A stretch of 64,000 bases of DNA from Candidatus Saccharimonadota bacterium (GTDB lineage: Bacteria; Patescibacteriota; Saccharimonadia; Saccharimonadales; UBA4665), in assembly GCA_003153395.1 (NCBI GenBank), contig PLYP01000006.1:62001-126000 (forward strand). The letters run 5' to 3'. Shown here in pieces: positions 17,437 through 33,707 of this stretch. The translations under genes were made by a program, and so were the position numbers. How positions within the stretch are numbered: position 1 is the first letter of the stretch; each line of letters starts with the position of its first letter. The notes beneath the pieces were generated by a model that ran no database searches, was not told the DNA's origin, and saw only the letters and a program-made list of their open reading frames with translations.

Positions 17437-17511
17437 TCCGGGGTAGCTCAGCGGTAGAGCGGGTGGCTGTTAACCACTAGGTCGCTGGTTCGAATCCAGT
17501 CCCCGGAGCCA
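17437..17511 (+). tRNA. tRNA-Asn (GTT)
   Basis: 75 bases including encoded CCA. The acceptor TCCGGGG pairs with CCCCGGA, the D arm is AGCTCAGCGGTAGAGC, and the anticodon arm GGTGG-CTGTTAA-CCACT gives GTT (Asn). The T arm is CTGGTTCGAATCCAG. The gene is intact, and its 3' end is the left boundary of the mobile island. The recombinase gene on the other strand reads back into it as far as the anticodon loop. Confidence 0.96.
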
Positions 17512-18996
17512 AGATTTAGTTTTTACCATCTCTGCGATAGCATCAAAGGGCTCTAACAGATTAAAAACCAGCCTTTCACCGTCCAATTTCGCGTTAGGAA
17601 GTAAAAAGTTAATTAGGAACCGTTTTTGTTCGAGTTGCGTACTTGCAGCTTCAAATAGTTCAGCACCACGGCTTGCAACGTCCAATATGTACGATGCACC
17701 AATAACAAAGGCTTTGTCGCCACTAGCGTGGTCTTGCAGCTCCTGAGCAATCATCTTCTGTTTATCTTCTCGCTCTTTAACCATATCCTCAAATAGCTGT
17801 GGGCGCGTCTTAAACTGCTTTCTATCGTTGAAAAGCTCCTTTATCTCCTCGTCAATGGCATTAAACTGCTTTTGGAGTCGTGCCCGATTACTCTTATAGT
17901 GGGCTTGCTCGCTATCGTGGTTACGCTCAATTTCGGCGATGATATTGGGCAATTCCTCTTTGGGCACCTTAATTGAAGCCAGTAGCTCTTTAACCTGGGC
18001 TACTAGCTTATCCTCGTTAATATACTTAGCGCCGTGCTTGCCAGCATACTCAGTGCACTTCATTATGTTGTACTTATCTTTTTTACGGTCAGTGCTAATA
18101 CTGTAGCCACACTCGTTGCACTTTAAGTTCTTAAACAGGAACTGCTTGCCAATGTAATTAGTCCGATTGGTAGCGCGCGCTTGCTTTACCTCTTGGCACC
18201 TATCCCACAGCCACGGCTGTATAAGAGCACCGTAATGGTGGTCATATTTTCCGCCGTTATAGCGCATGGTGCCTATGTAAAATGGGTTATTCAGGATCTC
18301 TTCCCATTGACCCTTGGTAATGGCCTTGCGTAGCTTAGTGTTGCTCACCAAGCCAGCTTTTTTCATAGCATTGGCGATTGCCGCATATGATAAACCCGTA
18401 GAGCGCAGCTCAAAGCCCTTAACGATATGCTGGCTACGTTCGGGGTCAGGTTTTATATGTTTAATGGGGTCGCCTTTGGCATCTTTACCTTTTTCATAGT
18501 TGATGTAACCTAGGGGGGCTTTGCCAGGCCACTCGCCATCGTTTAGTTTTTGGTCAAAGCGGCGCTTTACGTTATCCCGTATGGCACTAGAGTAGTACCC
18601 AGCTAGGGCTATGCCAATGTCCAATCGGAACAAGTCGGCAGCGGGTGAGTTTTTATGCACAAACAGGTTGTCGCCAGGAAAGTGTATCTCTATCTTACCT
18701 TGGCGGAATAGCCTCGTAAGTATTTGGCGTTCCTCTGATGAGCTGTCCCTAGTAAAGCGGTCAATTTTATCAAACACAACAATCGCAAAGTCATTGCTGG
18801 CAAGCAGTGGCGCGATTACATTTTCATGGAACTTTTTACGGTTCTCCTTAAAGGCCGTTTCGTCAAACTCTTTATAGGTATAGTCTTTGCCCTCTACCCA
18901 GTGTCTGTCGTTGGCGTAATTGAATAGTTTTTGTTTTTGAGCTGGCAATGCTTCAAGTTGTGCTGGGTCTGAAACCCGTGCGATTAAATAGTTCAT
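17470..18996 (-). CDS. Large serine recombinase (integrase)
   Basis: 508 aa. The N-terminal resolvase domain has the catalytic serine in ARVSDPAQ (Ser9) and the arginine pair in DKIDRFTRD. A Recombinase domain follows (GYINYEKG to NPFYIGTMRYNGGKYDHHYG), then a zinc ribbon CNECGYSISTD..MKCTEY near residue 300 and a long coiled coil. It should catalyse integration and excision of the island. The last 13 residues, WLRGLDSNQRPSG, are encoded entirely by the antisense strand of tRNA-Asn, so the C-terminus was created by insertion at the tRNA. Confidence 0.93.
   Translation of the reverse strand: MNYLIARVSDPAQLEALPAQKQKLFNYANDRHWVEGKDYTYKEFDETAFKENRKKFHENVIAPLLASNDFAIVVFDKIDRFTRDSSSEERQILTRLFRQGKIEIHFPGDNLFVHKNSPAADLFRLDIGIALAGYYSSAIRDNVKRRFDQKLNDGEWPGKAPLGYINYEKGKDAKGDPIKHIKPDPERSQHIVKGFELRSTGLSYAAIANAMKKAGLVSNTKLRKAITKGQWEEILNNPFYIGTMRYNGGKYDHHYGALIQPWLWDRCQEVKQARATNRTNYIGKQFLFKNLKCNECGYSISTDRKKDKYNIMKCTEYAGKHGAKYINEDKLVAQVKELLASIKVPKEELPNIIAEIERNHDSEQAHYKSNRARLQKQFNAIDEEIKELFNDRKQFKTRPQLFEDMVKEREDKQKMIAQELQDHASGDKAFVIGASYILDVASRGAELFEAASTQLEQKRFLINFLLPNAKLDGERLVFNLLEPFDAIAEMVKTKSWLRGLDSNQRPSG
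17505..17513 (+). mobile_element. Left attachment site candidate at tRNA-Asn 3' end
   Basis: GGAGCCAAG at the discriminator/CCA end of tRNA-Asn recurs at 30460-30468, beyond the last gene of the island, and again at 31753-31761. It is the best candidate for the left core. Nine bases is short, so a chance match is possible. Confidence 0.45.
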
Positions 18997-19059
18997 GTTA
19001 TCTCCTTAAATTGATAGTACAGGAGGTCACCTTGATGCGCAGCTCCTGTACATTAAATG

Positions 19060-19275
19060 TTAAATATCGTTATCCACAGAGGCTGCTTTTGCTTGTTCTT
19101 CCAGCCAATCCTTATGCTGTTGGTCAAGCACAATAAGCAGTTCAATATACCGAACAAGGTTAAACCTCATCTCGGCCTCTTGCTGGGCAGTTAGCTGCCT
19201 ACCATAGAGCTTCTCATAGCTGCTCTTAAGCTCACCGTCATCGGCGGGTGGCGCCTGTACTTGTGGCTTATTCAT
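19060..19275 (-). CDS. Small hypothetical protein downstream of RepA-like ATPase
   Basis: 71 aa, not recognised. The sequence is hydrophilic with a helical middle part (LTAQQEAEMRFNLVRYIELL) and no membrane span or cysteine. Its ATG overlaps the end of the RepA-like gene by 8 bases, so the two are probably co-translated. It precedes the recombinase gene by 63 bases. Position suggests an accessory role in replication or excision of the element, for instance a small directionality factor. That role is only a guess. Confidence 0.6.
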   Translation of the reverse strand: MNKPQVQAPPADDGELKSSYEKLYGRQLTAQQEAEMRFNLVRYIELLIVLDQQHKDWLEEQAKAASVDNDI

Positions 19276-20230
19276 CGTTAGCCTCCGCGCCTAGGCTGTA
19301 ATATTTGGTTTTACCCAAACCTGCCGTTTCCAAAACTATGCCATCAGAGACCACTTCCTTAAGCAGTTCGCGTAGCTTGTGCTCGTTGGTTTTTACACCA
19401 AGCTTATCCAGGCCAATCAATAACTCCTTTTGGAATAGCTTGTCATGCTCGCTAAGTAGTTTAAGGGCAGCATTTTTAATAACCTGGTTTCTATTTTCCT
19501 GCACCTTCATTGCGCCTTGGTAATCAAACTTAAAACTATCGTCATCGGTTACTACATGCACCTCAAACGGCTCAAGCTCCTCGGCATAGCGGTTTTTACC
19601 CTGGTGTAATGTCAAGCTTTTATCTCTACGCCTTAAGCCAATATGGCAGTCTACGGACGCTAATATGTCTGACGACCCGCGCATTTCGTTGCTAATTCCA
19701 TTACTGTTAGCGCCTGGCTTGCGGTTATGGTGTGTTACGAGTACCGCAATGCCCTTAGCGGCAAATCGTTTGAGCTGCTTAAACACCCCCGACATATCGC
19801 CCGCGCTGTTTTCATCAGATCCATGTACTCGCACTAACGAGTCAATTATTAGAAGTTTAATGTCGTTTGTTTTGCAACTTAGTATTGCTGCGTCCACATT
19901 GTCGTCGTTAAGGACAAAGCCTGGTTGACTACTAAAGTAAATTGGCAGGTCTGCGGTTGCTTTTAGTTTAAAAAGCCGTTCCTGCAGTAGCCTCTCGCCA
20001 TTTTCTTCGTCAATTATTAGTACATTCCCTTGGCTAGTTTCATAGTTCCCAAATAGTGGCTCGCCTTTTGCTACACACAATGCTGTGTGTAGTGTTACCC
20101 ATGTTTTATATGAGGCGGGTGCGCCCGACAGTATGGTTATGGCTCCTGCTGGAACCAGCTTATCTATTAGCCATACTTGCTCAGGGAAACTCCGCCACAT
20201 TAATTGTTCTAGTGTTACTAACGGTTCCAT
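19268..20230 (-). CDS. RepA-like AAA_25 ATPase
   Basis: 320 aa RecA-fold ATPase. Walker A is GAPASYKT (36-43), Walker B is IKLLIIDSLVRVHG, and the later motifs LVTHHNRK and GSSDILASVDCHIGLRR fit the AAA_25/RepA helicase-like family of plasmids and phages. The C-terminal region looks like a winged helix (LLIGLDKLGVKTNEHKLRELL). It would load or act as a replicative helicase on the excised element, or regulate its genes. The following small gene overlaps it by 8 bases. Confidence 0.8.
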   Translation of the reverse strand: MEPLVTLEQLMWRSFPEQVWLIDKLVPAGAITILSGAPASYKTWVTLHTALCVAKGEPLFGNYETSQGNVLIIDEENGERLLQERLFKLKATADLPIYFSSQPGFVLNDDNVDAAILSCKTNDIKLLIIDSLVRVHGSDENSAGDMSGVFKQLKRFAAKGIAVLVTHHNRKPGANSNGISNEMRGSSDILASVDCHIGLRRRDKSLTLHQGKNRYAEELEPFEVHVVTDDDSFKFDYQGAMKVQENRNQVIKNAALKLLSEHDKLFQKELLIGLDKLGVKTNEHKLRELLKEVVSDGIVLETAGLGKTKYYSLGAEANDE

Positions 20231-20250
20231 ACCAAAATATTTCCTAAACT

Positions 20251-20290
20251 AAAACCACCCGACGGATTGGTTGGTAGTCAGGTGGTTTTT
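20251..20290. terminator. Terminator hairpin
   Basis: AAAACCACC-C-GAC pairs with GTC-A-GGTGGTTTT around a 13-base loop and is followed by more T residues on the plus strand. On the minus strand it lies between the unknown gene at 20364-21002 and the RepA-like gene, so it would terminate the former. Confidence 0.65.
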
Positions 20291-20363
20291 TACACCAATC
20301 CACTAGCATAATAGGTACTAGCGGGCAGCTAAGCAGGTCCTATTTAAAGTACCTTTTTAAGTG

Positions 20364-21002
20364 CTACTTTTTATCTTTTGGATAATATCTATAGTAGTAA
20401 GACTTTAGGCTAAACTCATCGCTAAGCCAGTTCTTTGTATCTGTTTCGCCTTGGTAGTAAGCTAATTCTCCAGTCGAGTATAAGGCGTATATATCCTTAA
20501 ACTTTGTTTTTGGCTGACGATGCCGTGCTTTAAAAATTGCGTAAAGAAGTTTGGGGTCTTCTGGGGTTTTGCGCTTTGTGGGAGCAATGTTTAACAGGTC
20601 GGCCTTTAAGTCTTGTATGGTATACCATAATACCTCAAAGTCTTTTTGTGGTATATCGGGCTTAACTGTAACCTCGACTACCCGTTCCTCTCTGTTATAA
20701 CTTACTCTGGGGTTGCTATCTCTATTAAGCTTTCCTCCACGCTGATAGCGTAGTCTGTAAAACTTAATATCATCGGTTGATATACCGAATGCTTCCGCCA
20801 ATTGATCTAGCTTATTCTCAAAGATGGTTTCATCAAAAACCTTAGGCTTTGTTTTCACTTTTATAGTAGGCTTGCCGCCGTATTTGCTATCAATGTAAGG
20901 AACTAGTCCCACATACTCGCTTAAAAACTCTGGGTCATTATATACATAGTAGATGTGCCACTCATGCGGGCTTACATAGTTAGCTTTCGGGTATCTCTCC
21001 AT
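20364..21002 (-). CDS. Hypothetical protein, tyrosine/lysine rich
   Basis: 212 aa, not recognised. It has no membrane span. The composition is rich in Tyr, Lys and Asp, with a YYYRYYPKDKK end. The central VSYNREERVVEVTVKPDIPQ looks like a beta hairpin, and FKARHRQPKTKFKDIYALYS is helical and basic. It stands alone with its own terminator, divergent from the structured leader of the next gene. Its place beside replication genes makes a DNA-binding or regulatory role possible but unproven. Confidence 0.6.
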   Translation of the reverse strand: MERYPKANYVSPHEWHIYYVYNDPEFLSEYVGLVPYIDSKYGGKPTIKVKTKPKVFDETIFENKLDQLAEAFGISTDDIKFYRLRYQRGGKLNRDSNPRVSYNREERVVEVTVKPDIPQKDFEVLWYTIQDLKADLLNIAPTKRKTPEDPKLLYAIFKARHRQPKTKFKDIYALYSTGELAYYQGETDTKNWLSDEFSLKSYYYRYYPKDKK

Positions 21003-21042
21003 TCCAATCCTTATCTACTCAAATACTACCATGCAGAGGTGT

Positions 21043-21070
21043 TATAATTCCCATAACACTAAAAGTGTTA
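21043..21070 (+). promoter_or_regulatory. -10 box with overlapping perfect palindrome
   Basis: TATAAT (21043-21048) is followed 5 bases later by TAACACT-AAA-AGTGTTA (21054-21070), a perfect palindrome with 7-base arms placed on the predicted start site, as expected of a repressor operator. It lies between two divergent genes. Confidence 0.5.
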
Positions 21071-21130
21071 AATACAATTTGGCATGACCTAAACTGACTA
21101 GCCCCAAAGGCAAAAGGCATGGTTATAAAT

Positions 21131-21258
21131 CCACAGAGCGTACTAACCCCGTAGTTAGGTACTGCTCTGTGGTTGCGGCTGGAAACGGCCGTAGGTGGCG
21201 CAAGTCATCGCTTAGCTGCGGGTTTTGTGCGTCTGCGGCTAGGCTACCAACCGTAACC
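21131..21258 (+). ncRNA. Structured leader RNA candidate
   Basis: Three strong foldings occur in succession. CCACAGAGC pairs with GCTCTGTGG, with inner GTAC/TAAC pairs (21131-21172). A 7-pair stem closed by a GAAA tetraloop spans 21175-21192. GCTTAGCTGC pairs fully, with two G-U pairs, with GCGGCTAGGC (21210-21244). GGTT and AACC near 21171 and 21255 could close the set. The order promoter, palindrome, hairpins, GGGGGA ribosome site, ATG at 21271 suggests a structured 5' leader or a separate small RNA. It matches no riboswitch class that I recognise. Confidence 0.5.
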
Positions 21259-21270
21259 TAGGGGGACAGA

Positions 21271-21900
21271 ATGGCATTTGACGCATTTAAACGGGCTAAG
21301 CAAGAGCTAGAAGCCAAGAAGCTTGGCATACCTGCCGACCAAGCCGCTACGCAATTTATCAACCAAAACCTAATAACCGACCTGGGTAAACGTGGCGAAA
21401 AGCTACTTGCCCAAAACCTGGAAGCTGGCGAGCAGGTGCAGGCCAAACTAAAGGGCGACTTTGGCCAAGGCTTTGTGGTTACCAATAAGCGGGTGCTAGT
21501 CATAAAGTATGGCTTCCAAAGCGGTAGTACCTTTGGCGGCAAATGCATTAGCTACGTCTATAGCAACATTACGGGCTTACACATCAACAAGCAGGCACTA
21601 AAGGCCATGGTGCAGGTTCTAACACCCGCTACCCAGGCCAACGTAAAGCTTAGCTATTGGGGCAGCCGTGGCAGCCAGAATAACGCTGTTGAGAGCGATT
21701 ATGCCGTAACCTTTAGCAGCGCCAGCGTACCCTTGTTCCAAGAGGCTGTACGTCTGGCACGCGAGCACATGGATAGCGGTAGTAACAACAGCGCCACAAG
21801 CGACCTAGACCAATTGGAAAAGCTGGCCGACCTAAAGACTAAGGGCATTATTAGTGAACAAGAGTTTGCCGCTAAAAAGCAGCAATTACTAGGGCTATAG
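21271..21900 (+). CDS. PH-like domain protein with C-terminal SHOCT domain
   Basis: 209 aa. After a helical N-terminus, residues about 50-165 form a bacterial PH-like domain (EQVQAKLKGDF, FVVTNKRVLVIKYG, YSNITGLHI). The last 30 residues (LEKLADLKTKGIISEQEFAAKK) are a typical SHOCT short helical domain, often found on oligomerising or phage-exclusion proteins. GGGGGA precedes the ATG. It is soluble and pairs with the membrane protein 19 bases downstream. Function is unknown. Confidence 0.75.
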   Translation: MAFDAFKRAKQELEAKKLGIPADQAATQFINQNLITDLGKRGEKLLAQNLEAGEQVQAKLKGDFGQGFVVTNKRVLVIKYGFQSGSTFGGKCISYVYSNITGLHINKQALKAMVQVLTPATQANVKLSYWGSRGSQNNAVESDYAVTFSSASVPLFQEAVRLAREHMDSGSNNSATSDLDQLEKLADLKTKGIISEQEFAAKKQQLLGL

Positions 21901-21919
21901 GGTATATTAAAAGGTAATT

Positions 21920-22840
21920 ATGGCTGACACCACGCCGCAGGAAAGAGATAAAACATTCAACATCCGAACCAACGGCATGCTGGACGAAATAAAGCAGTAT
22001 CTTGTTGATGAAAGCACAGAGCAATACTCGCCAAAGTACACAGGCATATTAAAACAGCCCGCCAAAGCAACAATTGAAAAGTGGCAAAAGCAAGTTGACG
22101 CGCTGGATAAATACTTCCGTGACGACCAAGAGCTAGGCTACATCTTTTACAAGCTTTTGCTATGCCAAGCCCTGGTCTATTACCTGGACGGCGACAATGA
22201 CAAGGCGCTGCACTTTTTCAATGGCGCAATGACCTTTGAGAGATATGACGTGGTGCTCTACTACCTAGGTATTGTACGCAAGCTCGGCGGCAAGGTGCCA
22301 AAGGTGCATGACTCCAATAAGCGGCCACAAAGCTCACTAGCCTTTGATTTAGCAATGACAGATGAGAAGGGTAAGGTACCGCTTATCAAGCACCTAACTG
22401 TCGGCCTGCCATACGCCGTTACTAGCCACTACAGCCAGTGGACTAGCGAAGAGATAGACCGATATGTATTTCTGAGGGCTATAGAGTGGCTAGCGCTACC
22501 TGCCTTTGTGTTAATCGGCTTGGGGGCACTACTGCTTTTAGTCATACCTCCACTACCACTCATTATCGGTTTAATAGTGGTCAACTTTACTTGGTCGCTT
22601 TTTGCAACGCGAGCTGTAAGCCTAGGAGTTGCAGAGGTGAGCGTATATTTAAATAAGCTAAAGTTTATAACTATACCAATTGCCACAATAGTTCTGGCGC
22701 TTAGGCATGACTACAAGGTTGCAGTCCTGGCCTTACTATGGGCAGTCGTAGGCATACTAATAAGCCTTATACGGGTAAATGACAAAAAGGGCATTATTGC
22801 CCATAAGTTTAAGCAGCAAATATTTCTAAAAACCCGATAA
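21920..22840 (+). CDS. Hypothetical membrane protein with helical-repeat N-terminus
   Basis: 306 aa, not recognised. Residues 1-170 are soluble and include a TPR-like stretch (YIFYKLLLCQALVYYLDGDNDKALHFFNGA). Residues about 190-285 hold four hydrophobic segments. The end is basic (HKFKQQIFLKTR). AAAGG lies 5 bases before the ATG. It is likely transcribed with the PH/SHOCT gene, and the two may work together at the membrane. Confidence 0.65.
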   Translation: MADTTPQERDKTFNIRTNGMLDEIKQYLVDESTEQYSPKYTGILKQPAKATIEKWQKQVDALDKYFRDDQELGYIFYKLLLCQALVYYLDGDNDKALHFFNGAMTFERYDVVLYYLGIVRKLGGKVPKVHDSNKRPQSSLAFDLAMTDEKGKVPLIKHLTVGLPYAVTSHYSQWTSEEIDRYVFLRAIEWLALPAFVLIGLGALLLLVIPPLPLIIGLIVVNFTWSLFATRAVSLGVAEVSVYLNKLKFITIPIATIVLALRHDYKVAVLALLWAVVGILISLIRVNDKKGIIAHKFKQQIFLKTR

Positions 22841-22855
22841 AAGCCTTTTGCCCAC

Positions 22856-22965
22856 ACTACAAAAACTCCAAGCTAATTAATGCAGTAGAATACGCAAATC
22901 CCGTATCTGTAAATGCCTAATGTGATGTGCAAAAATTAAGCCACCTTTTTTAGAGTTTTTGTAGT
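22856..22965. repeat. Perfect 13-bp inverted repeat, 84-base spacing
   Basis: ACTACAAAAACTC (22856-22868) is the exact complement of GAGTTTTTGTAGT (22953-22965). The pair lies in the 224-base gap after the membrane protein gene. Several CCGTAT/ATACGG elements occur inside and just right of it (to about 23030). It may be a transcription end, an origin or a transfer site. I see no gene here. Confidence 0.5.
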
Positions 22966-23064
22966 AAAAACGAGGCTATTTATAGGTGCTACTTTACGAA
23001 GACCGTATTTTGGCATAACGGATACGGACAATACCCCCAAAGGCTCCGTTAACTATTCCGCAGG

Positions 23065-23259
23065 TTAGCGCATCATAGCTGCAAAGCTTACCTTGGGGGC
23101 ACGCAACTTATACTTCTTGGCTAGCTGGCTGGCGGCTGTGTTTATGTCGTCAATTATGGGCTGTGCTTCTGCCTTAGCCTGCTCGTAGCTAATCTCATGG
23201 GTTAGCATACGGCGACGTATGTCAGCTATCTTTAATTGATTGCTTATGGCAGTTTGCAT
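23065..23259 (-). CDS. Small basic hypothetical protein
   Basis: 64 aa, not recognised. The predicted product is helical and positively charged (IADIRRRMLTHEISYEQAKAEAQPIIDD) with no membrane span. It begins ATG at 23259 without a clear ribosome site. It lies between an inverted repeat and another minus-strand gene. It could be a small DNA-binding or toxin-neutralising protein, but nothing shows this directly, and the frame might not be coding. Confidence 0.4.
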   Translation of the reverse strand: MQTAISNQLKIADIRRRMLTHEISYEQAKAEAQPIIDDINTAASQLAKKYKLRAPKVSFAAMMR

Positions 23260-23318
23260 AGATGGGTTACCTGTTGAGTGAAGCCATCTTAGTACGGTCT
23301 TGGCTGCAGAGCAACTCC

Positions 23319-23744
23319 TTATTTTTGCTTAAGGTATAGTGCTTTGATTGCGGTTTCGTTTGTGAGAATTTTTTCTAAATCGGGTGCTTGGTCGGGTTTC
23401 ATTTGGACGACATTGGACAAGAAAATTAAAGACTTTGTCGCGGCTGCAACGATATCGACCTTGGGTACAAAGTGTAATTTTGCCCAGAAATTGTAATAAG
23501 GAATTAGCAACACGCGGGTCTGTAGCTCCCCAGATAGCGACCTAAAAGTTTCGTGTGCTTCATTAATCTTTTCTTTGGGCATTGCCCCCAAGCTTGTGTA
23601 CTCGCGGCCGTAATAACTTATCGCACTTGCTATGTTGCCAATAACCTCTTTGAACTTTTGTATGGGGTCAATAATAAACTTAGAGAGTAGCTGGCTTAAT
23701 ACATACACCAGCGTGCCAGTAATAACGGTAATAAAGACTTCCAA
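23319..23744 (-). CDS. Hypothetical membrane-anchored protein
   Basis: 141 aa. One N-terminal span (VFITVITGTLVYVLSQLLS) is followed by a soluble helical domain (FKEVIGNIASAISYYGREYTS and onward). The layout matches small bacterial proteins with an N-terminal anchor and a cytoplasmic domain of unknown function. It lies divergently from the HEPN-like gene at 23829. A GGAGCAAC sequence precedes the ATG. It may belong to the accessory cargo of the island. Confidence 0.6.
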   Translation of the reverse strand: MEVFITVITGTLVYVLSQLLSKFIIDPIQKFKEVIGNIASAISYYGREYTSLGAMPKEKINEAHETFRSLSGELQTRVLLIPYYNFWAKLHFVPKVDIVAAATKSLIFLSNVVQMKPDQAPDLEKILTNETAIKALYLKQK

Positions 23745-23828
23745 TGTTGCTCCTTTGCTTTTGCTACTATTTATTTTACCGCTATAAGCTTATAAAGAGT
23801 AAACTTATAGGGTAAACGGGAAAATAAC

Positions 23829-24665
23829 ATGGATAGAGAACTACTTCGCCACCTTTTATTTGGGTATTTGAAGACTGTTGAAAATGCGCCCAACACGCAG
23901 CTAAGCACCATTTATGGTAGCGTAGCCACGCTAGCCGTTGACGGTGGGCACTTTCCCAGGCCAAACAACTATGTGCCTGGCTCTGGCTTCCTAAGCGTGG
24001 AGATACTACCAGAAAGCGATAGGCTTATTTTACAAGAGCTAACTTGGGAGATGATTATCCAAGGCGTCTTGGCGCCAGGTGCAGACTGGTCAAACCCAAA
24101 CCTACCCTTTGTCCGAATAACCGAGTACGGCAGGCGCTGTTTGGCCGAGAGCACCATACTGCCGCACGACTACGGCACTTACCTGGAAGCCATTAAGCAG
24201 GTAACGCCAAGCACTGACCCTACGTTCTTGTTGTACCTAACGGAAAGCGTGGAAGCCTTTAATAAGGCGCTCTACATAAGCTGCACGGTTAATTTAGGCA
24301 TTGCCTCGGAACAACTGACTATTTTGCTAGTTGACGCATATAAAGGTGCCATTAAAAGCACGGCCAATAAAACAAAGTTTGAGCAGGCAATCAATAAGCA
24401 GCGCCACATAGCCTACCAATTTGAGGAGTTATTTAAGCGCTTGGTAGCTAATAAAGCGGCGTTCCCAGCCGACATTGCCGACAACCTGGATATGATTAAG
24501 TTCTTAGAAGAGATTATTCGCAAAGAACGTAATGACGCGGGACACCCCACGGGCAGAACCTTTACACGCGAGGAAGCCCTGGTTTTGTTAATTGCATTCC
24601 CAGCCCACTATAAAACGGTTATAAAGCTATTGGACTGGCTTAAAGCAAATTCAGCTACTATTTAG
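23829..24665 (+). CDS. Hypothetical protein with HEPN/DUF4145-like C-terminus
   Basis: 278 aa. The first 110 residues could form winged-helix-like folds (LTWEMIIQGVLAPGADW, FVRITEYGRRCL). The C-terminal half is helical and ends RKERNDAGHPTGRTFTREEAL, the R-N-x-x-G-H pattern of DUF4145/HEPN-like domains, which often act as RNases in defence systems. A direct nuclease role is inference. The next gene starts 36 bases later with its own leaderless promoter. Confidence 0.5.
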   Translation: MDRELLRHLLFGYLKTVENAPNTQLSTIYGSVATLAVDGGHFPRPNNYVPGSGFLSVEILPESDRLILQELTWEMIIQGVLAPGADWSNPNLPFVRITEYGRRCLAESTILPHDYGTYLEAIKQVTPSTDPTFLLYLTESVEAFNKALYISCTVNLGIASEQLTILLVDAYKGAIKSTANKTKFEQAINKQRHIAYQFEELFKRLVANKAAFPADIADNLDMIKFLEEIIRKERNDAGHPTGRTFTREEALVLLIAFPAHYKTVIKLLDWLKANSATI

Positions 24666-24689
24666 CCAGTAAATACACCAGCGTAATGT

Positions 24690-24695
24690 TATTAT
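24690..24695 (+). promoter_or_regulatory. -10 box of leaderless cargo-operon promoter
   Basis: TATTAT ends 6 bases before the ATG at 24702. There is no ribosome site. Confidence 0.5.
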
Positions 24696-24701
24696 AAGAC
24701 C

Positions 24702-25634
24702 ATGAAAACAGTATTAGTAACAGATAGCCTTTTTATTTTCCCCGAACATGAACAACAACTAAAAGATGCTGGGTACGAGTTTGTGCGGCTGGACAAGCCG
24801 CAAGCTAGCGAAGATGAGCTGTGCGAGGCCGTTAAAGGCAAAGCGGGTTATATCCTCGGCGGTATTGAAAAAGTAACCACAAAAGTTATTGAAGCTGCCG
24901 ATGTTTTAGAGGCAATTGTGTTTACAGGCATTGGCTACAAAAGTTTTATACCAGGCTGGGAAGCTGCCACGCAAAAAGGTATTGCCATCTCGAACGTGCC
25001 TGATGGCCCTACACAACCCGTGGCCGAATGGTCTATGACCGCAGCACTGGTTATGAATAGAGGCATATTTGAACTTGGCAGCCCTGATGGTAAGACTTTT
25101 CTTACGACTACTGGCTTAGAGGGACTAACAGTCGGCATTATTGGTTTAGGTCGTATTGGTGGCCGTATAGCCGAAATGTTAAAACCGTTTCGCCCTGCCA
25201 AAACACTTTATTACAGCACGCACCACCACCAAGACAAAGAGAGCAGCCTAAGCTTGGAGTATATGCCTATAGACGAGCTGCTACAAAAAAGTGACGTGGT
25301 GTTTTTGTGTGTGCCAGATGAAGTTGGACATGGCTTTTTTACGGCAGACCACTTTGCCCATATGAAAGAGAATGCCTTGCTAGTTAGCTTCATGCACGGC
25401 GACATTATTGATATTGATGCCCTTTATGGTGCACTGGACACTGGCAAAATCCGTGCCATCTCCGACTACCCAATGGACGATAGGTTTAACAAATTCCCGC
25501 TCTCAAAGTGGTACAGCTTTAAGGCTTCCAATGCCTTTAACACAAAGCAGTCATTAAAGTTCACCAGCGACAGAGCTACACAAGCATTGCTAAACTTGCT
25601 GACCACAGGTAAAGACGAAAACAGGGTCAACTAA
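24702..25634 (+). CDS. 2-hydroxyacid dehydrogenase-like protein, altered active site
   Basis: 310 aa with the two-domain plan of D-2-hydroxyacid dehydrogenases. The NAD fold VGIIGLGRIGGRIAEML lies near residue 145, preceded by a typical GIGYKSF segment. The catalytic Arg in the usual N-x-x-RG motif is His232 (SFMHGDIIDIDAL). The catalytic His of the TPH motif is also missing (FKASNAFNTKQSL). It should bind NAD(H), but may not reduce 2-oxo acids in the normal way. First gene of a four-gene cargo operon; it overlaps the next by one base. Confidence 0.75.
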   Translation: MKTVLVTDSLFIFPEHEQQLKDAGYEFVRLDKPQASEDELCEAVKGKAGYILGGIEKVTTKVIEAADVLEAIVFTGIGYKSFIPGWEAATQKGIAISNVPDGPTQPVAEWSMTAALVMNRGIFELGSPDGKTFLTTTGLEGLTVGIIGLGRIGGRIAEMLKPFRPAKTLYYSTHHHQDKESSLSLEYMPIDELLQKSDVVFLCVPDEVGHGFFTADHFAHMKENALLVSFMHGDIIDIDALYGALDTGKIRAISDYPMDDRFNKFPLSKWYSFKASNAFNTKQSLKFTSDRATQALLNLLTTGKDENRVN

Positions 25635-26191
25635 TGAAGACGGCATGGCTACTGCACGGTACTGGCGGTAGCGATAAAGACTATTTTTGGTTCAATGACA
25701 CCAGCCAATATTTAGCTACCCAAGGCTACCAAGTATGGTGGCCGTTGTTACCGCATACCGAAAAGCCAGAGCTTGAGGAAACCCGCAACTTTATTGAAGA
25801 CAACATGCCCCTATTTGACAAAGATACCGTCATTATTGGGCACTCGTCGGCCTGCCCAGTGCTGCTTAGTTTTATGCAGCATATGAAAGTGCCAGTCAAG
25901 CAAGTCATTTTAGTGTCTGGCTTTTATACGTCATTAAATGATGATGGTTACTCCGACCGTATGCTCCAACCTGATGATTATGACTGGGAAGCCATTAAAA
26001 AAGCTGCAAGCGAAATTATACTTATCAACTCGGATAATGACCCATGGGGTTGTAATGACACGCAAGCACGGCCAATAGCCATTAAACTTAATGCCTCGCT
26101 TATAGTTGCCACTGGCCAAGGCCATATGGGTTCGGGTACATACAACCAACCGTATAAAGAGTTCCCGTTACTTAAGCGATTAATACCATGA
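25634..26191 (+). CDS. RBBP9/YdeN-like serine hydrolase
   Basis: 185 aa small alpha/beta hydrolase. It begins with WLLHGTGGSDKDYFW; the nucleophile is Ser71 in IIGHSSACP, the aspartate is in NSDNDPW, and the histidine is in GQGHMG, which is a full triad. These small hydrolases act on esters or thioesters of unknown identity in many bacteria. It overlaps the dehydrogenase-like gene by one base and the PPC gene by four, so the operon is tightly coupled. Confidence 0.8.
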   Translation: MKTAWLLHGTGGSDKDYFWFNDTSQYLATQGYQVWWPLLPHTEKPELEETRNFIEDNMPLFDKDTVIIGHSSACPVLLSFMQHMKVPVKQVILVSGFYTSLNDDGYSDRMLQPDDYDWEAIKKAASEIILINSDNDPWGCNDTQARPIAIKLNASLIVATGQGHMGSGTYNQPYKEFPLLKRLIP

Positions 26192-26595
26192 AGCTGCGTA
26201 CTTTTCGTTTAAAGCCAGGCCAAGACATAAAGAGTGAGATTGAGCAGTTTACGCAAACAAATAAGATAAAGGCTGGTTTTATCGTTACTTGCGTGGGTGG
26301 TTTGCAGCAAGCAACGCTGCGTATGGCAGGTGCTACACCTGACAGGCAAGATATAAGAACATTTGAAGGGCATTTTGAAATTACGTCGCTAGTGGGCACG
26401 CTGTCAGCAAATGGCTGCCATCTGCATATGACGATTAGTGATACGGACGGCAACGCGTTTGGTGGCCACCTGAAAGAGGGTTCAATAGTTCACCCTACAG
26501 CTGAAATCGTGATCGGTGAAGACCTGACCATGGCTTATACTCGCGAGCTAGATGGTGATACTGGTTTTACCGAGTTAGTAGTGCGTCCGAGGTAG
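26188..26595 (+). CDS. PPC/DUF296-domain protein
   Basis: 135 aa, the size of stand-alone bacterial PPC (DUF296) proteins. The typical opening LKPGQDIKSEIEQF is followed by IVTCVGGLQQATLR and GCHLHMTISDTDGNAFGGHL; the histidines and GGHL are the conserved part. The fold makes trimers. In plants it occurs in AT-hook proteins, while in bacteria its role is unknown. It overlaps the upstream hydrolase by 4 bases, and the nucleotidyltransferase gene starts 2 bases after its stop. Confidence 0.8.
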   Translation: MKLRTFRLKPGQDIKSEIEQFTQTNKIKAGFIVTCVGGLQQATLRMAGATPDRQDIRTFEGHFEITSLVGTLSANGCHLHMTISDTDGNAFGGHLKEGSIVHPTAEIVIGEDLTMAYTRELDGDTGFTELVVRPR

Positions 26596-26597
26596 TT

Positions 26598-27353
26598 ATG
26601 GGGCAAGTAAGTTACCGCTTTCAAAAGGGTTTTGAGGCTCTTAAATCTCTTGAGCAACACCCCCGTTACCAGGCAGCTTTTATATTTGGCTCAGTTGCCG
26701 AGGGAACAGCCAACGATAAAAGCGACATGGACGTAAAAGTTATTGTTGATGAAGACAATCCTTGCAGCAACATAAACCACCCCGTTATTGATGACTACAA
26801 GCTAGACCTTACCTTCCCATCGTTTAAGCAACTTGAGGCTTTTGTAGAGGAAGAGATACGGAAAGGTGACCGTGAGCCAAACTTAGCACGGGCAATAATT
26901 GTCTTTGACAAGACTGGCCAACTAACCAAACTACAAAAGCGGGTTACTAAAACTAAACCGTTTAAATACAAGCAAAGTGATTACCAGTTTGTGCAGTTTA
27001 TGCTCTACCACGCCGACAACAAGGTAGGGCGTTTTATTAATGATGATCCGTTAGCCTCGCTATATTCCATGCACGCGAACATTGGCGAAGTGCTCAAGAA
27101 TTACTACAAGCTAAAAGGTCGTTGGTGGGTTAGCAGTAAAAAGGTGCTAGCTGACTTAGAGCAGTGGGATAAAACATTGGCCAATTTGGTAAAAGATTTT
27201 GTGAGCACTGCAGACCTGCAGCAAAAGCATGCGCATTGGTCGGCAATTATTGACCATGTTACAGAGCCTATGGGCGGTCGCCAGCCAATTAGTGAAAATA
27301 ACTGCGGCTGCAGTGTTTGTACTATAGACCTACAAACTTTGTTAGCGAGTTAG
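26598..27353 (+). CDS. Nucleotidyltransferase-domain protein
   Basis: 251 aa. The NTase motif GS-x3-G followed by D-x-D is complete (Gly31-Ser32, Asp43, Asp45), and a third acidic residue lies in YKLDLTF. The C-terminal half is helical (VQFMLYHADNKVGRF, VLKNYYKLKGRWW), like aminoglycoside and other small-molecule adenylyltransferases. The final NNCGCSVC cluster could bind metal. It may add a nucleotide to a small molecule, protein or tRNA. Last gene of the cargo operon. Confidence 0.7.
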   Translation: MGQVSYRFQKGFEALKSLEQHPRYQAAFIFGSVAEGTANDKSDMDVKVIVDEDNPCSNINHPVIDDYKLDLTFPSFKQLEAFVEEEIRKGDREPNLARAIIVFDKTGQLTKLQKRVTKTKPFKYKQSDYQFVQFMLYHADNKVGRFINDDPLASLYSMHANIGEVLKNYYKLKGRWWVSSKKVLADLEQWDKTLANLVKDFVSTADLQQKHAHWSAIIDHVTEPMGGRQPISENNCGCSVCTIDLQTLLAS

Positions 27354-27461
27354 CCCCTGCCTGGCATAAGTAGTCCTCATATAGACCAACAACTATCCGA
27401 AACCGCATAAACGAGGCTTACTATATATATTTAGTTTACTCGGTTTTGTAAATGCCCTTGA

Positions 27462-28298
27462 TTAGTTCTTTTTCTTGGTTTTTATTTTGCTAATCTCCTT
27501 AATGCTGGCCTCAATGTTTTCTTGTTGGCCTTTTTTAAACTCGGCAATGTAGCCTGGTAGCTCTGCCTTAAGCTTCTTCTCGTCATAGTGCGTAGTGCTG
27601 AACCACGGTACTGCAACCGATAGCCACCACGCGCGGTGCTTCTTTACATAGCCAATCTTACCCATAAGCTCATCAAGGGTCTTATCGGCAGCTTCAATGA
27701 ATCCCTTAATCTCACCAAGCTGGTTAATGAGTGTCGTGGAGTTAGCAGTGTAAACCGCTTGAAATACTGCGTTCTCTTGTAGGGTTTGTTGGCCTTGTCT
27801 TTTTAGCACGTCATCCATTAGCTTTTCGGCGAACTTTTGCAAGGCATTTAAGTCATAGTTTATTTTTTCTATGTCGGCAAAATAGTTAAAAACGTCATTT
27901 ATAAAATTAACATTTTTTAAATCTTGCAGTCTAATAGGGCCGATCGGTATCTCTTTAAACTCAAGGAAGTGTACGGGCTGCTTCTTTTTTAGGGCATCAA
28001 TCATTTTGTCGGCTACGTCCAAGTTAGTACCTATCATGTTCAAATGCTTATTAAGTAAATACTCAAGGCTTACTATGGTGTCCACGTTTAACTTTTCGCG
28101 CTGCGATAGCCTAGTAAACAGCTCTCCATATTTAACAAATAAGTAGGCAAAAGCCGCACCGCCAAATGCTGTAATGAAGCTGTCCCTGGCCACCACGTTT
28201 TTAATGCTTTTGTCTACAATTCCAAAGACTATGGCTACCATGGCGGCGGCAATAGCAACCAGCCCTAATTTACTAACAAAGTATGCAAGACGCTTCAT
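27462..28298 (-). CDS. Hypothetical two-span membrane protein
   Basis: 278 aa, not recognised. Two hydrophobic segments (about 8-27 and 40-56) precede a long helical cytoplasmic part and a basic end (ISKIKTKKKN). A short hydrophobic WWLSVAVPWF lies near residue 225. Its ATG overlaps the stop of the 648-aa helix-turn-helix gene by 4 bases, so the pair are co-translated. Together they may form a sensor/effector unit in which this protein is the membrane part; this is inference from context. Confidence 0.65.
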   Translation of the reverse strand: MKRLAYFVSKLGLVAIAAAMVAIVFGIVDKSIKNVVARDSFITAFGGAAFAYLFVKYGELFTRLSQREKLNVDTIVSLEYLLNKHLNMIGTNLDVADKMIDALKKKQPVHFLEFKEIPIGPIRLQDLKNVNFINDVFNYFADIEKINYDLNALQKFAEKLMDDVLKRQGQQTLQENAVFQAVYTANSTTLINQLGEIKGFIEAADKTLDELMGKIGYVKKHRAWWLSVAVPWFSTTHYDEKKLKAELPGYIAEFKKGQQENIEASIKEISKIKTKKKN

Positions 28299-30241
28299 GG
28301 CTTCGCTCCGCCGTTGCCGCGGTTAATTTCCTTGTATTCAATCATAGCGAGTATCAGTAAAAGGTGTAGTAGCAAGTTAGCCTGCTGCCTATTGGCGCTA
28401 CTGTATTCTAGTAGGCCATGTGCGGCACTGTCTCGCAGGTCAAGCCCGCGCTTGTCCCACAGGATTAGGCAAAAATACTGGTACATGTCTGGCGACATAA
28501 CATCTTTGAAATTAGCCAGGGCTTCGGTCAGGTAAATAACTCGCTGCTCACCATTGTCGCGCGAACGCATTGCCGCCTTGCCAATTTTGCGGCTGGCGAT
28601 GCGTAGTAGTTGTTCAATTTGTGGCACTATAGTGGTAATGAACGAGTAGTGCTTGTCTTCAAAATATAGGCTTAGGGCTTCGCTAACGGCTGGGAACGCC
28701 TCATTGTCAAAGAAGTCATGGCGCGATAGGTAGGCCGCCAAGGTTTGGGCGTCCATACCCCTGCGCTTTAGCTCATCGAACAAGAAGCCAAGCGACATGC
28801 CCTGGAACGATATATCTTCACTCAGTCTGTTAAGTACATGGTCTTCGGTAAGCTCAAGGCCACCTGGCGATATTCTAACTACGCGCCCGTCTTGTAGGGT
28901 GGTTTTACCAAAGATATGCTGCATCGGATACTTCTCGGCCATCTCCTCGGTCATTTCCCTCGCGCGTTCAAGGCTAGGTATCATGCCGCGCATCAGTGCG
29001 ATACGGGCAAACGATTTGTCCATGTCTTCAACCAACACCGAGTCAATATATCGCTTAATGTCTTCATTCTTAATCGTAAAGTCAAAGGACACTGACTTCA
29101 TTTCATCTTGGCCTTGCAGGTTAGCCTGTTCTATAAGGTGGCGTAATTGCTCGGACTCATCGGCGTTTATTACACCAGAACCGACCTTTAATGCTTCGGC
29201 CAGGAAATGTGCAGCAACAAGGCCGCTATTAGCCTTGGTATCGGCTTCGCGCAGGTAAGAGTCGAACATCTCACGCTTAACCTTTTTCTGCTCGTTAGTG
29301 CTGCTCTTGACTGCGGGCAACTGCAACTTGAGCTCCATAAAGCTTCGGGCGAGATACTCATTCTTAGCCTGGTTAATATAGTAGTCGGTTGCGTCATTTA
29401 TAAAGCCAGGCAGCTTGGCTAGTACAGCCGCTGGCAGCTTATTGGTGTGGCTTAATAATTCTTCGGCCAGTTCGTGTACTATGCGCGGTCTGTCGGCGGC
29501 GACAAACTCTTGCATCTTAGTAGATGCGTAGTTTATGGCAGTAGTAATAGTTGATGAGTCATTTAGCGTAAAGCCAATTTCAAGGGCACGCAGAATGTAG
29601 CCTTGGGCAGTAAGTATGCGGTCATCGTCATTTAGGGCAAGCTCGGCGCCCGTAGCAAGCAGGTATTCCTTGGCGGCCTGTTTACCAAAGTTCGCCTTGT
29701 CGGCGCCCTTACTAAACTCAAACACCATGTCGCAGTAGACCGCTTTGGAAACGGAGTTATTAACTTCGCTAACTCGCTTCTTGGCATAGGCAACAAGGTC
29801 GGCATTAATCCATGCGGGGTCGGGGCGAGCAACTTCGCCACCGTCCTCGGTCTTAAAGGTCATGCGCGGCGCAAAGCGACCCCACTTGACCTCACTACTT
29901 GCTCGGCGAGCCTTTGGCTTTAGAGTATAGCTAAAAATTAAAGCATCTTTGGCAATCTCATCTGCGCGGTCAACGTCGCCGCGCTCTCGTAAAATCTTTT
30001 CCGCAGCGAATAAAACATCGGCACGCTGGAACATCCAGCGGTAATCCTCGTTAGTTTCAAGGGCGCGCGTAATAAGCTCGTCTGGGTTGCTTGGCGTGGT
30101 AAGCAGGGCCTGCAGGTCTTCTTCGGCTATACGGTACTCTTTGCCAACACGCTGCGCTTTTAATTTGCCCTGCTTAATGTAGCGGCGTAGCGTAACGATG
30201 CTGATACCCAATTTTTCGGACGCCTGTTTAAGCGTATACAT
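28295..30241 (-). CDS. Large protein with N-terminal MerR/excisionase-type HTH
   Basis: 648 aa. Residues 1-50 are an excisionase-type helix-turn-helix (LKQASEKLGISIVTLRRYIKQGKLKAQRVG). The rest is mostly helical, perhaps repeat-like, with no recognised catalytic motif. An acidic charged middle includes EMTEEMAEKYPMQHIFG. It is transcribed from about 30242 and overlaps its membrane partner by 4 bases. A DNA-binding domain on such a long chain is unusual. It could regulate the island or sense invading elements. Confidence 0.65.
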   Translation of the reverse strand: MYTLKQASEKLGISIVTLRRYIKQGKLKAQRVGKEYRIAEEDLQALLTTPSNPDELITRALETNEDYRWMFQRADVLFAAEKILRERGDVDRADEIAKDALIFSYTLKPKARRASSEVKWGRFAPRMTFKTEDGGEVARPDPAWINADLVAYAKKRVSEVNNSVSKAVYCDMVFEFSKGADKANFGKQAAKEYLLATGAELALNDDDRILTAQGYILRALEIGFTLNDSSTITTAINYASTKMQEFVAADRPRIVHELAEELLSHTNKLPAAVLAKLPGFINDATDYYINQAKNEYLARSFMELKLQLPAVKSSTNEQKKVKREMFDSYLREADTKANSGLVAAHFLAEALKVGSGVINADESEQLRHLIEQANLQGQDEMKSVSFDFTIKNEDIKRYIDSVLVEDMDKSFARIALMRGMIPSLERAREMTEEMAEKYPMQHIFGKTTLQDGRVVRISPGGLELTEDHVLNRLSEDISFQGMSLGFLFDELKRRGMDAQTLAAYLSRHDFFDNEAFPAVSEALSLYFEDKHYSFITTIVPQIEQLLRIASRKIGKAAMRSRDNGEQRVIYLTEALANFKDVMSPDMYQYFCLILWDKRGLDLRDSAAHGLLEYSSANRQQANLLLHLLLILAMIEYKEINRGNGGAKP

Positions 30242-30450
30242 TTTTTACCCTCACTTATCAATAGTTATCACTTAACTATCAATAGCATACTCTTTGTTTA
30301 TTCTAGGCGCAAGCAATAATCGCCTAACAGGTGCGATGCCAATTTAAGCTGTGGGATATTGAACCAGGCCGCTACCCAGGTACTCTTTTGCTAGTTCAAC
30401 CTGGTTGGCGATATTCATAACTGCCTGGTAATACCTGGTGTGGAGTATGC

Positions 30451-30475
30451 CCGCTAGCTGGAGCCAAGCATAAGC
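30451..30475 (+). repeat. Boundary repeat copy A
   Basis: CCGCTAGCTGGAGCCAAG followed by CATAAGC. First of five imperfect copies between gene units; it contains the 9-base match to the tRNA-Asn end (30460-30468). Confidence 0.5.
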
Positions 30476-30493
30476 ACTTTTGAAGAAGTGCTT
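30472..30493. promoter_or_regulatory. Hairpin overlapping -35 region
   Basis: AAGCACTT and AAGTGCTT form a perfect 8-bp stem around TTGAAG, which is also the -35 box of the next gene. It may be an operator or the terminator of the upstream unit. Confidence 0.4.
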
Positions 30494-30509
30494 GTTTATT
30501 TGATATAGT
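30480..30509 (+). promoter_or_regulatory. Leaderless promoter of YdeI-like gene
   Basis: TTGAAG (30480-30485), 18 bases, TATAGT (30504-30509), then 6 bases to the ATG at 30516. Confidence 0.55.
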
Positions 30510-30515
30510 TGAATT

Positions 30516-30767
30516 ATGACCAAAAAAGATATTGCCACTGGTGTGGTGCATGAAGTGCCGGCGGATTTACGTAAAGCCCTGATATCTGACGAATCTGCTT
30601 TAGAAAGGTGGGAGGATCTCACGCCACTGGCACGCAATGAGTGGATTTGCTGGGTAACCTCCACCAAAAAACCAGAGACGAGAAGAAATCATATCGAGCG
30701 GACAATTACTGAATTGCTGCAAGGAGTGCGCCGCCCTTGTTGTTGGCTCGGCTGCATTCATCGTTGA
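30516..30767 (+). CDS. YdeI/OmpD-associated family small protein
   Basis: 83 aa. The sequence VPADLRKALISDESALERWEDLTPLARNEW..WV, with KKPETRRNHIERTITELLQG and the ending RRPCCWLGC, is that of the short bacterial YdeI/OmdA family linked to bacteriocin protection. It is helical and soluble. The true biochemical role is unknown. Start set by the leaderless promoter. Right after the stop, 34 bases (30784-30817) match the end of a response-regulator gene 2.8 kb away. Confidence 0.75.
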   Translation: MTKKDIATGVVHEVPADLRKALISDESALERWEDLTPLARNEWICWVTSTKKPETRRNHIERTITELLQGVRRPCCWLGCIHR

Positions 30768-30816
30768 AGAAACCCCCGACAGGATCATAAAAGTTGTTGC
30801 GAAGTACGTCCACTAG
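30768..30816 (+). pseudogene. Receiver-domain 3' end remnant
   Basis: In frame with nothing upstream, the codons read DRIIKVVAKYVH and TAG. The response regulator at 33247 ends DLIKIVAKYVN and TAG. At DNA level 30784-30817 agrees with 33580-33613 at 30 of 34 positions. The rest of the receiver gene is missing here, so this is a duplicated or left-over 3' end. Confidence 0.55.
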
Positions 30817-30827
30817 GTGAGCCAAAC
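30810..30827 (+). repeat. Boundary repeat copy B
   Basis: CCACTAGGTGAGCCAAAC. Its first nine bases equal the anticodon-stem/variable-loop segment of tRNA-Asn (17474-17482), and GAGCCAA equals its 3' end. Confidence 0.45.
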
Positions 30828-31698: not shown

Positions 31699-31743
31699 CT
31701 AACCAAAACGGCACTCAATTTGCTTTATAGCTACCGAAGTACT

Positions 31744-31768
31744 CCGCTAGGGGGAGCCAAGAATAAGC
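31744..31768 (+). repeat. Boundary repeat copy C
   Basis: CCGCTAGGGGGAGCCAAG followed by AATAAGC. GGAGCCAAGA matches the tRNA-Asn end over ten bases. The preceding GAAGTACT resembles the receiver-gene end seen at copies B and D. Confidence 0.5.
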
Positions 31769-31903: not shown

Positions 31904-33250
31904 ATGTTAGACATTTCTAATAAGCGGTACCAGTACAAGTCAATTTTATACGCACTAAGCTTGCTGTTGATTCTTTCATTTTGCCTGGTCACAATTGAAC
32001 TGTACGCTTCAAATAACCTCAATAAAATTTTGGAGCTCAGACGTGGTGATCAGCTCCGACATGATCTTGCTGACGATACATTATCCGATCTTGAAAGCGC
32101 GGAGACTGGACAGCGTGGATATCTCCTGACAGGCGATATAAATTACCTGAAATCTTATGTAGTGGCCCAGTCTCATATTCGTACGGATCTGCAGACACTG
32201 AAAAACCTTCGCAATTCTTTTTATAATCCATCTGCCATCGATAAATTAATATATCTCATTGGTAATAAACAAGATGAATTAAAGCATACTATCGATCTAT
32301 ATGATCAGTCCGGCATTGAGCCAGCGCTGAACGTGGTACGCACCAACGTCGGCAAAAGTACGATGGACCAGATACAAAACATTATTAACGGCATTCAGAC
32401 GAGACAAGATAATATCTTAACGAAATACGAACATCAGCGTACCGAGTTCCAAAGAACTACATCGATCATTGCTCCTTTAATCTTGGCTAGCAATACATTC
32501 CTGGCACTTGTTACTTTGTATATGATCAATAAAACAATCAAAAAAGAGAGGCAGATAGAAAGCTTACAAGAAGATTTCGTAACAATTGCATCACATCAGC
32601 TTAGGACGCCCGCCACTGCAATCAAACAATACCTATCCCTAATGCTTGAGGGTATCTACGGCAAATTACCAAAAAAACAAAAAGAGGTGCTTACAATAGT
32701 AAATGATGCCAATAACAAGGAAATCGATATTGTAAATAGCCTGTTGAATATTTCCAAGTTAGAAACGAGCAAATTGCATATGCAAAAGCAGCCGGTAGAT
32801 ATTGTTGCCTTACTTAAAATAGTCGCGGCGCACTATGGTGCCACTCTTAAAAGCAATAAACAGAAGCTCGTTACAGAATTCCCAAACGGACCTGTTACGC
32901 TCACGTTAGATAGGGCGTATATGATGCTAGCATTCGAGAATTTGCTAGATAATGCATGCAAATATACACCCCCCGGTAAAAATATAAGGTTATCGGTAAC
33001 TGAGACTAGAGATAGCTATAAGATCGCATTTCATGATGAGGGCATTGGCATAAGACATAGAGATATACCAAAACTGTACAAGAAATTCTCGAGGTTGGAT
33101 AACGCGGCAGTAACAGACGTAAGCGGCAGCGGTGTCGGTCTATATATGGTAAAGCATATCGTCCAGCTACACGGTGGCACGATTCGTGTACGATCAAAAC
33201 TGCATAGCGGTACCACATTTATGATAACACTCAAAAAAGAGCGATCGTGA
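31904..33250 (+). CDS. CHASE3-domain sensor histidine kinase
   Basis: 448 aa. Membrane span 1 (about 13-33), an extracytoplasmic CHASE3 domain (SAETGQRGYLLTGDINYL), span 2 (about 188-212), HisKA with His231 in SHQLRTPATAI, then HATPase with N box FENLLDNACKY, DEGIGI and GSGVGLYMV. All kinase motifs are present. A GGGGG ribosome site precedes the ATG. It should phosphorylate the receiver protein whose gene overlaps its stop by 4 bases. The signal is unknown. Confidence 0.92.
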   Translation: MLDISNKRYQYKSILYALSLLLILSFCLVTIELYASNNLNKILELRRGDQLRHDLADDTLSDLESAETGQRGYLLTGDINYLKSYVVAQSHIRTDLQTLKNLRNSFYNPSAIDKLIYLIGNKQDELKHTIDLYDQSGIEPALNVVRTNVGKSTMDQIQNIINGIQTRQDNILTKYEHQRTEFQRTTSIIAPLILASNTFLALVTLYMINKTIKKERQIESLQEDFVTIASHQLRTPATAIKQYLSLMLEGIYGKLPKKQKEVLTIVNDANNKEIDIVNSLLNISKLETSKLHMQKQPVDIVALLKIVAAHYGATLKSNKQKLVTEFPNGPVTLTLDRAYMMLAFENLLDNACKYTPPGKNIRLSVTETRDSYKIAFHDEGIGIRHRDIPKLYKKFSRLDNAAVTDVSGSGVGLYMVKHIVQLHGGTIRVRSKLHSGTTFMITLKKERS

Positions 33251-33612: not shown

Positions 33613-33625
33613 GGAGTGCCAAGCA
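33605..33625 (+). repeat. Boundary repeat copy D
   Basis: TTAACTAGGGAGTGCCAAGC plus A. This copy begins inside the last codons of the receiver gene and includes GTGC-CAA-GCAC. Confidence 0.4.
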
Positions 33626-33650
33626 CAACCTCAGCATGCTTCAACTCAGC

Positions 33651-33669: not shown

Positions 33670-33707
33670 CCATAATACTTAGTTCGAAACATGTCCGGTA
33701 GGGGAAA

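Follow-up and report, generated by a model that had tools for sequence, protein, structure and literature searches.

The large serine recombinase (LSR) gene in the 64,000-nucleotide stretch of Candidatus Saccharimonadota DNA analysed here (the window) reads at its 3′ end into the antisense strand of a tRNA gene, which raises the question of whether the C-terminus encoded there belongs to the enzyme or is a product of integration. The tRNA gene, a tRNA-Asn (GTT) with an encoded CCA, was located by ARAGORN at 17437–17511 on the plus strand (Rfam tRNA match of 70.5 bits, locus L001) and is the integration target, with the attL core at its 3′ end. The LSR gene occupies 17470–18996 on the minus strand and encodes, in this integrated form, a 508-residue protein composed of Resolvase, Recombinase, and zinc-ribbon-like regions. 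Its reading frame ends in ...KSWLRGLDSNQRPSG with a TAA stop at 17470–17472, and the last 13 codons plus the stop (minus strand) fill 17470–17511 exactly, running antisense to the tRNA, with the first of these codons at its CCA end and the stop in its anticodon loop. Trp496 (TGG) is the antisense of the tRNA-encoded CCA, GAT-TCG-AAC (Asp-Ser-Asn) that of the T-loop, and the stop codon is complementary to the TT of the anticodon together with A37. The coordinates and the translation confirm the initial annotation, which had placed the end of the recombinase in the antisense of the 3′ half of tRNA-Asn. Residues 498–508 of this tail have AlphaFold pLDDT values below 50.

The protein matches the N-terminal resolvase domain (PF00239, 39.8 bits against a cut-off of 23.3) and the Recombinase domain (PF07508, 43.7 bits against 21.1); the zinc-ribbon match (PF13408) reaches 21.7 bits, below its cut-off of 25.3, and Cys293, Cys296, and Cys314 are invariant. 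The catalytic Ser9 and Arg53, Arg80, and Arg83 are invariant across 45 relatives, and the profile of the protein matches A118 integrase 4kis with E = 1.6e-12. A short crossover core and an attP half-site longer than the attB half-site, both described below, are likewise those of a large serine recombinase. The catalytic and DNA-binding domains all remain on the 508-residue integrated part.

A single overlap between an ORF and the antisense strand of a tRNA means little, because all three antisense frames are usually open (medians of 13, 20, and 28 codons in 46 relatives). The comparison of C-termini across relatives that the initial annotation had proposed was carried out on LSR relatives from Saccharibacteria. 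The overlap is present in 50 of 69 distinct relatives, and 49 of these 50 enter the antisense tRNA in the same frame. The targets of the 50 comprise nine isoacceptor types (Asn, two Gly, two Gln, Trp, Arg, Asp, and Ser), and on an LSR tree from which the tRNA-encoded residues were left out the target tRNA changed at least nine times; the five-member clade that contains the window LSR itself has targets that include Asn, Gly, and Arg. Across 45 LSRs, Trp496 is conserved to at least 90%, and the linker that precedes it is 11 or 18 residues long, with one exception. The conservation of frame and Trp through changes of target exceeds chance. Relatives inserted at Gly, Gln, Arg, Asp, Trp, and Ser tRNAs each end in the antisense of their own tRNA, and the target therefore sets the integrated tail. 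Remote relatives (21–27% identity) end 74–90 nt short of the tRNA.

Several observations lie at the margins of this comparison. An LSR on a Legionella adelaidensis plasmid (L171, 13459–13534) ends PKWLPGQDLNL in antisense tRNA-Asn, and a non-Saccharibacteria LSR on a faecal contig (L174, 2302–2389) ends in antisense tRNA-Leu, both in the same frame as the window enzyme; a further LSR from outside Saccharibacteria (L173, tRNA-Glu) enters the antisense tRNA in a different frame. In two other Saccharibacteria, the tRNA-Asn anticodon loop contains a group I intron (L042, 1280–1513, minus strand, RF00028 at 98.9 bits; L044, 1960–2189, plus strand, 92.5 bits), and split tRNA-Asn matches occur in G037 and G066 as well.

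To the left of the window tRNA, a gene order that includes smpB is kept in relatives. To its right, GC content rises from ∼0.39 to 0.45 and similarity to relatives returns only near 43–53 kb; the tRNA is therefore the edge of a variable region. We propose that an integrated element of 12.96 kb extends from 17512 to 30459 (GC 0.44–0.48 vs ∼0.39 left of the tRNA). Its attL core, CTTGGCTCC at 17505–17513 on the minus strand, combines the antisense of the CCA end with 2 further nt, and the attR core is the same CTTGGCTCC in the same orientation, 12,955 bp away at 30460–30468 (minus strand). According to the initial annotation, integration would restore the tRNA. The core shared by attL and attR amounts to just 6–9 nt at the CCA end and the 3′ half is not rebuilt, so nearly all of the tRNA, and all or most of the peptide RGLDSNQRPSG, is host-encoded. 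Searches with 23-mers and 13-mers returned no long attR repeat in the window or the genome, because the real core is just 9 nt. Beyond the CCA of attR lies a hairpin, AAGCACTT...AAGTGCTT (30472–30493, plus strand), that resembles a tRNA terminator and would represent displaced host flank.

Reading inward from attR on the minus strand, the core opens an uninterrupted frame of 40 codons (30347–30466) that begins with TGGCTCC, like attL, and encodes WLQLAGILHTRYYQAVMNIANQVELAKEYLGSGLVQYPTA, a Trp followed by a 39-residue tail. We interpret this sequence as the detached native C-terminal tail of the LSR; joined to the long part of the gene it would give a circle gene of 535 codons (535 residues), compared with 508 in the integrated form. 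An ORF of 107 codons that starts with TTG (30344–30667) encloses the tail. Within the element, an AAA_25 ATPase of the RepA/primase-helicase-like type (19268–20230, minus strand) and a 212-residue protein (20364–21002, minus strand) also occur in a sister element, G274, at 49% and 29% identity, respectively. A 648-residue protein with an N-terminal excisionase/MerR-type HTH (28295–30241, minus strand) adjoins attR and is a possible directionality or regulatory factor.

Short sites of the form TTGGCTCC-NN-CTAG occur in the window at 30450–30468 and 31743–31760, and in a genome-wide search this pattern was confined to the region. The second of these, TTGGCTCCCCCTAGCGGA on the minus strand, is a further attR-like site of an older or different element, and a second, decayed copy of the window tail family (FRTKYYGAIMKIAAELKHAEVVLG; 33621–33701, minus strand) appears to be the remnant of an earlier one. 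An att-like site at ∼30790–30824 overlaps a response-regulator gene fragment and looks like the remnant of an earlier insertion at tRNA-Asn; a CheY-like response regulator has a fragmentary second copy of its end, the two stretches being 30720–30817 and 33247–33612, with a 33-nt repeat of 91% identity.

The same arrangement recurs in relatives. Thirty elements, the window's included, carry an LSR at attL and an in-frame tail at attR, 4.3–13.0 kb apart. The core shared by attL and attR in the 30 pairs is TGG plus 3–6 nt, at least 6 nt in every pair (5 nt were required by the search for pairs), with 0–3 nt more on the other side; it equals the CCA end of the target tRNA, which therefore places the crossover there. 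The attR sites begin with the bases of their own target, TGGCTCC for Asn and TGGCTGGGG for Gln, followed by CTAGTGGACGTACTTCGCAAC or a similar sequence. With search patterns that were built after the first sites had been seen and refined on the data, a DNA scan found 24 sites, all of them on the expected strand, and a scan at the protein level gave 50 matches in the predicted orientation vs two on the reverse strand; many genomes have two same-strand matches, one at the LSR end and one at a tail kilobases away. A half-site motif ending in AAC lies at 21–22 in the tRNA half and mostly at 26–28 in attR, a shift of ∼5 nt away from the core that matches the relation between attP and attB expected for LSRs. 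The pattern returned no attR tail for L131, L138, L140, L160, L163, L165, and others; tblastn matches suggest variant attR sites in L131, L138, and L140.

Tails read in the LSR frame from Trp at the sites nearest the tRNA span 11–63 codons, with a mode of 35–37, and those of Gln-type elements and one Trp-type element are often short (11–28 codons). One locus, L156 in G279, has nine attR-like sites (e.g., TGGCAGCCCCTAGTGGACGAGCTTCGAACTT) beside a recombinase, 4.3–10.6 kb from tRNA-Trp, spaced ∼0.5–1.2 kb apart and all in one orientation; this layout is suggestive of an integron-like array with inserts between the sites.

Within LSR clades, the attR tails are related to one another as proteins. 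The window tail is homologous to the attR tail of the sister element G274, WCTLVEVFRTKYYQAIVSIAKEVKLSQQYLSATIV, and the homology starts at the Trp of the core. The tails of L068, L069, and L133 form a second homologous set (...YExYEFDxLFDAVExYEPSLA...), and those of elements at Gly tRNAs a third (WCKIVDAFQTSAIxAxxDYKLKHLxExFQLSGxLL), which includes one Trp-tRNA member that starts with WQ. The homology of the window tail to that of G274 and the homology between L068 and L133 are among those recovered by tblastn independently of any pattern. Within one tail family, the first residues covary with the target: WL at Asn, WC at Gly, WR at Asp, and WQ at Trp.

The synonymous sites of these tails are near saturation, so that the following pN/pS ratios are rough and their sign counts more than their value: 0.30 for the window and G274 tails beyond codon 10, that is, outside the recombination motif (pN 0.30, pS 0.99, p = 2.6e-7), 0.41–0.51 for the L068/L069/L133 pairs of the Asn/Asp clade, 0.36 for 12 tails of the Gly clade (control frames, 0.96 and 1.53), and ∼1 for the L153/G220 clade. 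By this measure of substitution, the attR tails are under purifying selection in three clades.

The tails are also found joined to recombinases. In G020, a single ORF runs from an LSR C-terminal domain through IWC into HICDVFQTTSADRIDAYKLRELVGMFNLSGNLLEG, a natural in-frame join (ORF ...NSNIWCHICDVFQTTSADRIDAYKLRELVGMFNLSGNLLEG), and in L153 the C-terminus of a displaced LSR belongs to the G220 tail family, a second such join; insertion of another element next to an existing one would be expected to give joins of this kind. Scans of viral contigs for the circular free form revealed no joined relative, L190 being a fragment, and the window genome is the sole member of its genus among the genomes compared.

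These observations are best explained if integration splits the LSR gene at the element's own attP and swaps the native tail for an antisense-tRNA tail, a reading to which we assign a probability of roughly 0.8. The LSR coding sequence would run through attP: in the circle, whose formation we infer, the gene would be continuous, with ∼495 codons followed by the TGG-NNN core and then the native tail, 40 codons in the window. Recombination of attP with the CCA end of tRNA-Asn, acting as attB, would cut the gene in two, leaving the long part beside the tRNA at attL, where it would read on into the antisense strand as WLRGLDSNQRPSG, and stranding the native tail at attR, 13 kb off and without a start. 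The need to keep the core in frame with the native tail would account for both the frame shared by 49 of 50 relatives and the constant Trp. The sequences themselves demonstrate the antisense tail, the pairing of the cores, an attR tail in frame in the window and 29 other elements, purifying selection on that tail in three clades, and the natural joins. The initial annotation had it that integration completes the integrase gene; the opposite is indicated, as the conserved native tail is removed to attR and the circle would hold the full gene. Its suggestion that excision changes the end of the recombinase stands, since the C-terminus depends on the state of insertion, and the swap of tails is a possible switch between the integrated element and the circle.

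The element might instead, like many that target tRNAs, simply have its attP where the integrase gene ends, translation stopping wherever the antisense tRNA supplies a stop and neither tail being of consequence. Integrase genes commonly overlap attachment sites, and the wide range of the integrated tails (3–77 codons) and the low-confidence residues at the end of the window protein are what such a passive overlap would give. It fails to predict conserved, in-frame attR tails under purifying selection, however, and leaves the fixed frame unexplained; we consider it unlikely. A still more improbable alternative makes the attR tail a small gene in its own right, or a piece of another such as a regulator, as its distance from the LSR in the integrated state and the TTG-initiated ORF around it could suggest: conservation begins exactly at the Trp of the core, where there is no start codon, the homology to the sister element likewise starts at that Trp, the prefix follows the target tRNA, and the tails occur in natural joins to LSRs.

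Splitting of the gene at attP is thus the preferred reading, and what remains is how far its consequences reach. With selection on the circle tail and integrated tails that vary and, in the window, are modelled with low confidence, what evolution maintains appears to be the circle-encoded protein. The full-length protein would then be the form that integrates, the integrated form would have altered activity or none, and integration would be self-limiting; excision would require a partner or an incoming full-length copy. A stronger version holds that the integrated LSR, deprived of its tail, is inactive and the element locked until a full-length LSR is supplied in trans. Selection is visible on the circle tail and not on the integrated one, stacked elements at one tRNA are frequent, and SSV-type elements of archaea offer a precedent (PMC8371274), but the catalytic and DNA-binding parts are intact and the influence of the tail may be limited to direction or efficiency, so that we rate this version a little short of even odds. 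A switch of direction used throughout a widespread clade of bacterial serine recombinases, in which the native-tail form integrates, the antisense-tRNA peptide disables or redirects the enzyme, and one-way integration is encoded in the junction, is a tentative proposal that we lean against adopting as it stands.

Three other ideas were rejected. Copies of 15–28 nt of the tRNA 3′ end had been taken for attR at L068, L131, L145, L147, L150, L157, L158, and L160, which would have put the crossover in the T-stem and given random, non-conserved circle tails; they were ruled out by a conserved in-frame tail site 120–190 bp inside at several loci, and the arms neighbouring the copies are not conserved. 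A switch through a degradation tag was discarded because no ssrA-like ends occur among the tails inspected, and the idea that the displaced tRNA terminator regulates the recombinase gave a mixed result across elements. The copies themselves (L068 2209; L147 11346 and 6442; L150 4; L157 1767; L158 9981, 9808, and 9130; L083 2880) bound, at most of these loci, a 120–190-bp unit with strong hairpins just outside attR, the copy of the target tRNA 3′ end being 18–28 nt long. Two such units in L147 share 122 bp of identical sequence, and in L083 a 26-nt copy instead bounds a 1.4-kb insert.

The principle of an attachment site inside a coding gene is already known. In the suicidal integrases of archaea, the att site lies within the gene and is translated, and these enzymes switch among tRNAs (PMC8371274); a 2021 review describes self-splitting recombinases as exclusively archaeal tyrosine recombinases (PMC8371274). 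As in elements of the SSV1, pTN3, and pT26-2 type, integration at a tRNA splits the window integrase gene, here into the LSR body at attL and the tail at attR, and switching the target tRNA alters the protein sequence. Unlike the SSV-type tyrosine recombinases, the window enzyme is a bacterial serine recombinase, and whereas their catalytic domain is separated, the LSR loses only a short tail and gains one from the antisense tRNA. Phage BPs has attP inside its repressor gene, and integration shortens the repressor, the viral form of which carries an ssrA-like tag (PMC4557955); the LSR shares with it an attP in a coding gene and a product whose C-terminus is altered by integration, but the gene is that of the recombinase and not of a repressor, and the tails inspected show no such tag. 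Listeria A118 integrase, with minimal sites of 50 bp for attP vs 42 bp for attB (PMC3556126), has the same domain order, an attP longer than attB, and a short common core; in the LSR, unlike in A118, the core is the CCA end of a tRNA and the enzyme's own attP interrupts its gene.

As with mycobacteriophages Tweety (PMC2884959) and Ms6 (PMC1762012), integration is into the 3′ part of a tRNA gene, and the tRNA is intact afterwards. The common core of Tweety, 45/47 bp, lies upstream of the integrase gene (PMC2884959), in contrast to the 6–9-nt core inside the LSR gene. The integron differs in that its integrase, IntI, which acts on attC, is a tyrosine recombinase. A search of open-access papers turned up neither an account of an LSR gene that its own attP splits nor another bacterial serine-recombinase case.

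A bacterial serine-recombinase version would show that the design arose in an unrelated enzyme class. If the direction switch is true, site arrays such as the nine at tRNA-Trp in G279 would be the serine-recombinase counterpart of accretion in integrons. Within this LSR family, recombinase ends of the GLDSNQRP type, encoded by antisense tRNA, would be products of integration and not native, and the true tail would be missing from gene models and clones built on them. Nature may thus have provided paired versions of an enzyme, distinguished solely by the C-terminal tail and made according to the state of the DNA, and this makes the control of direction in serine integrases, a long-standing question, testable.
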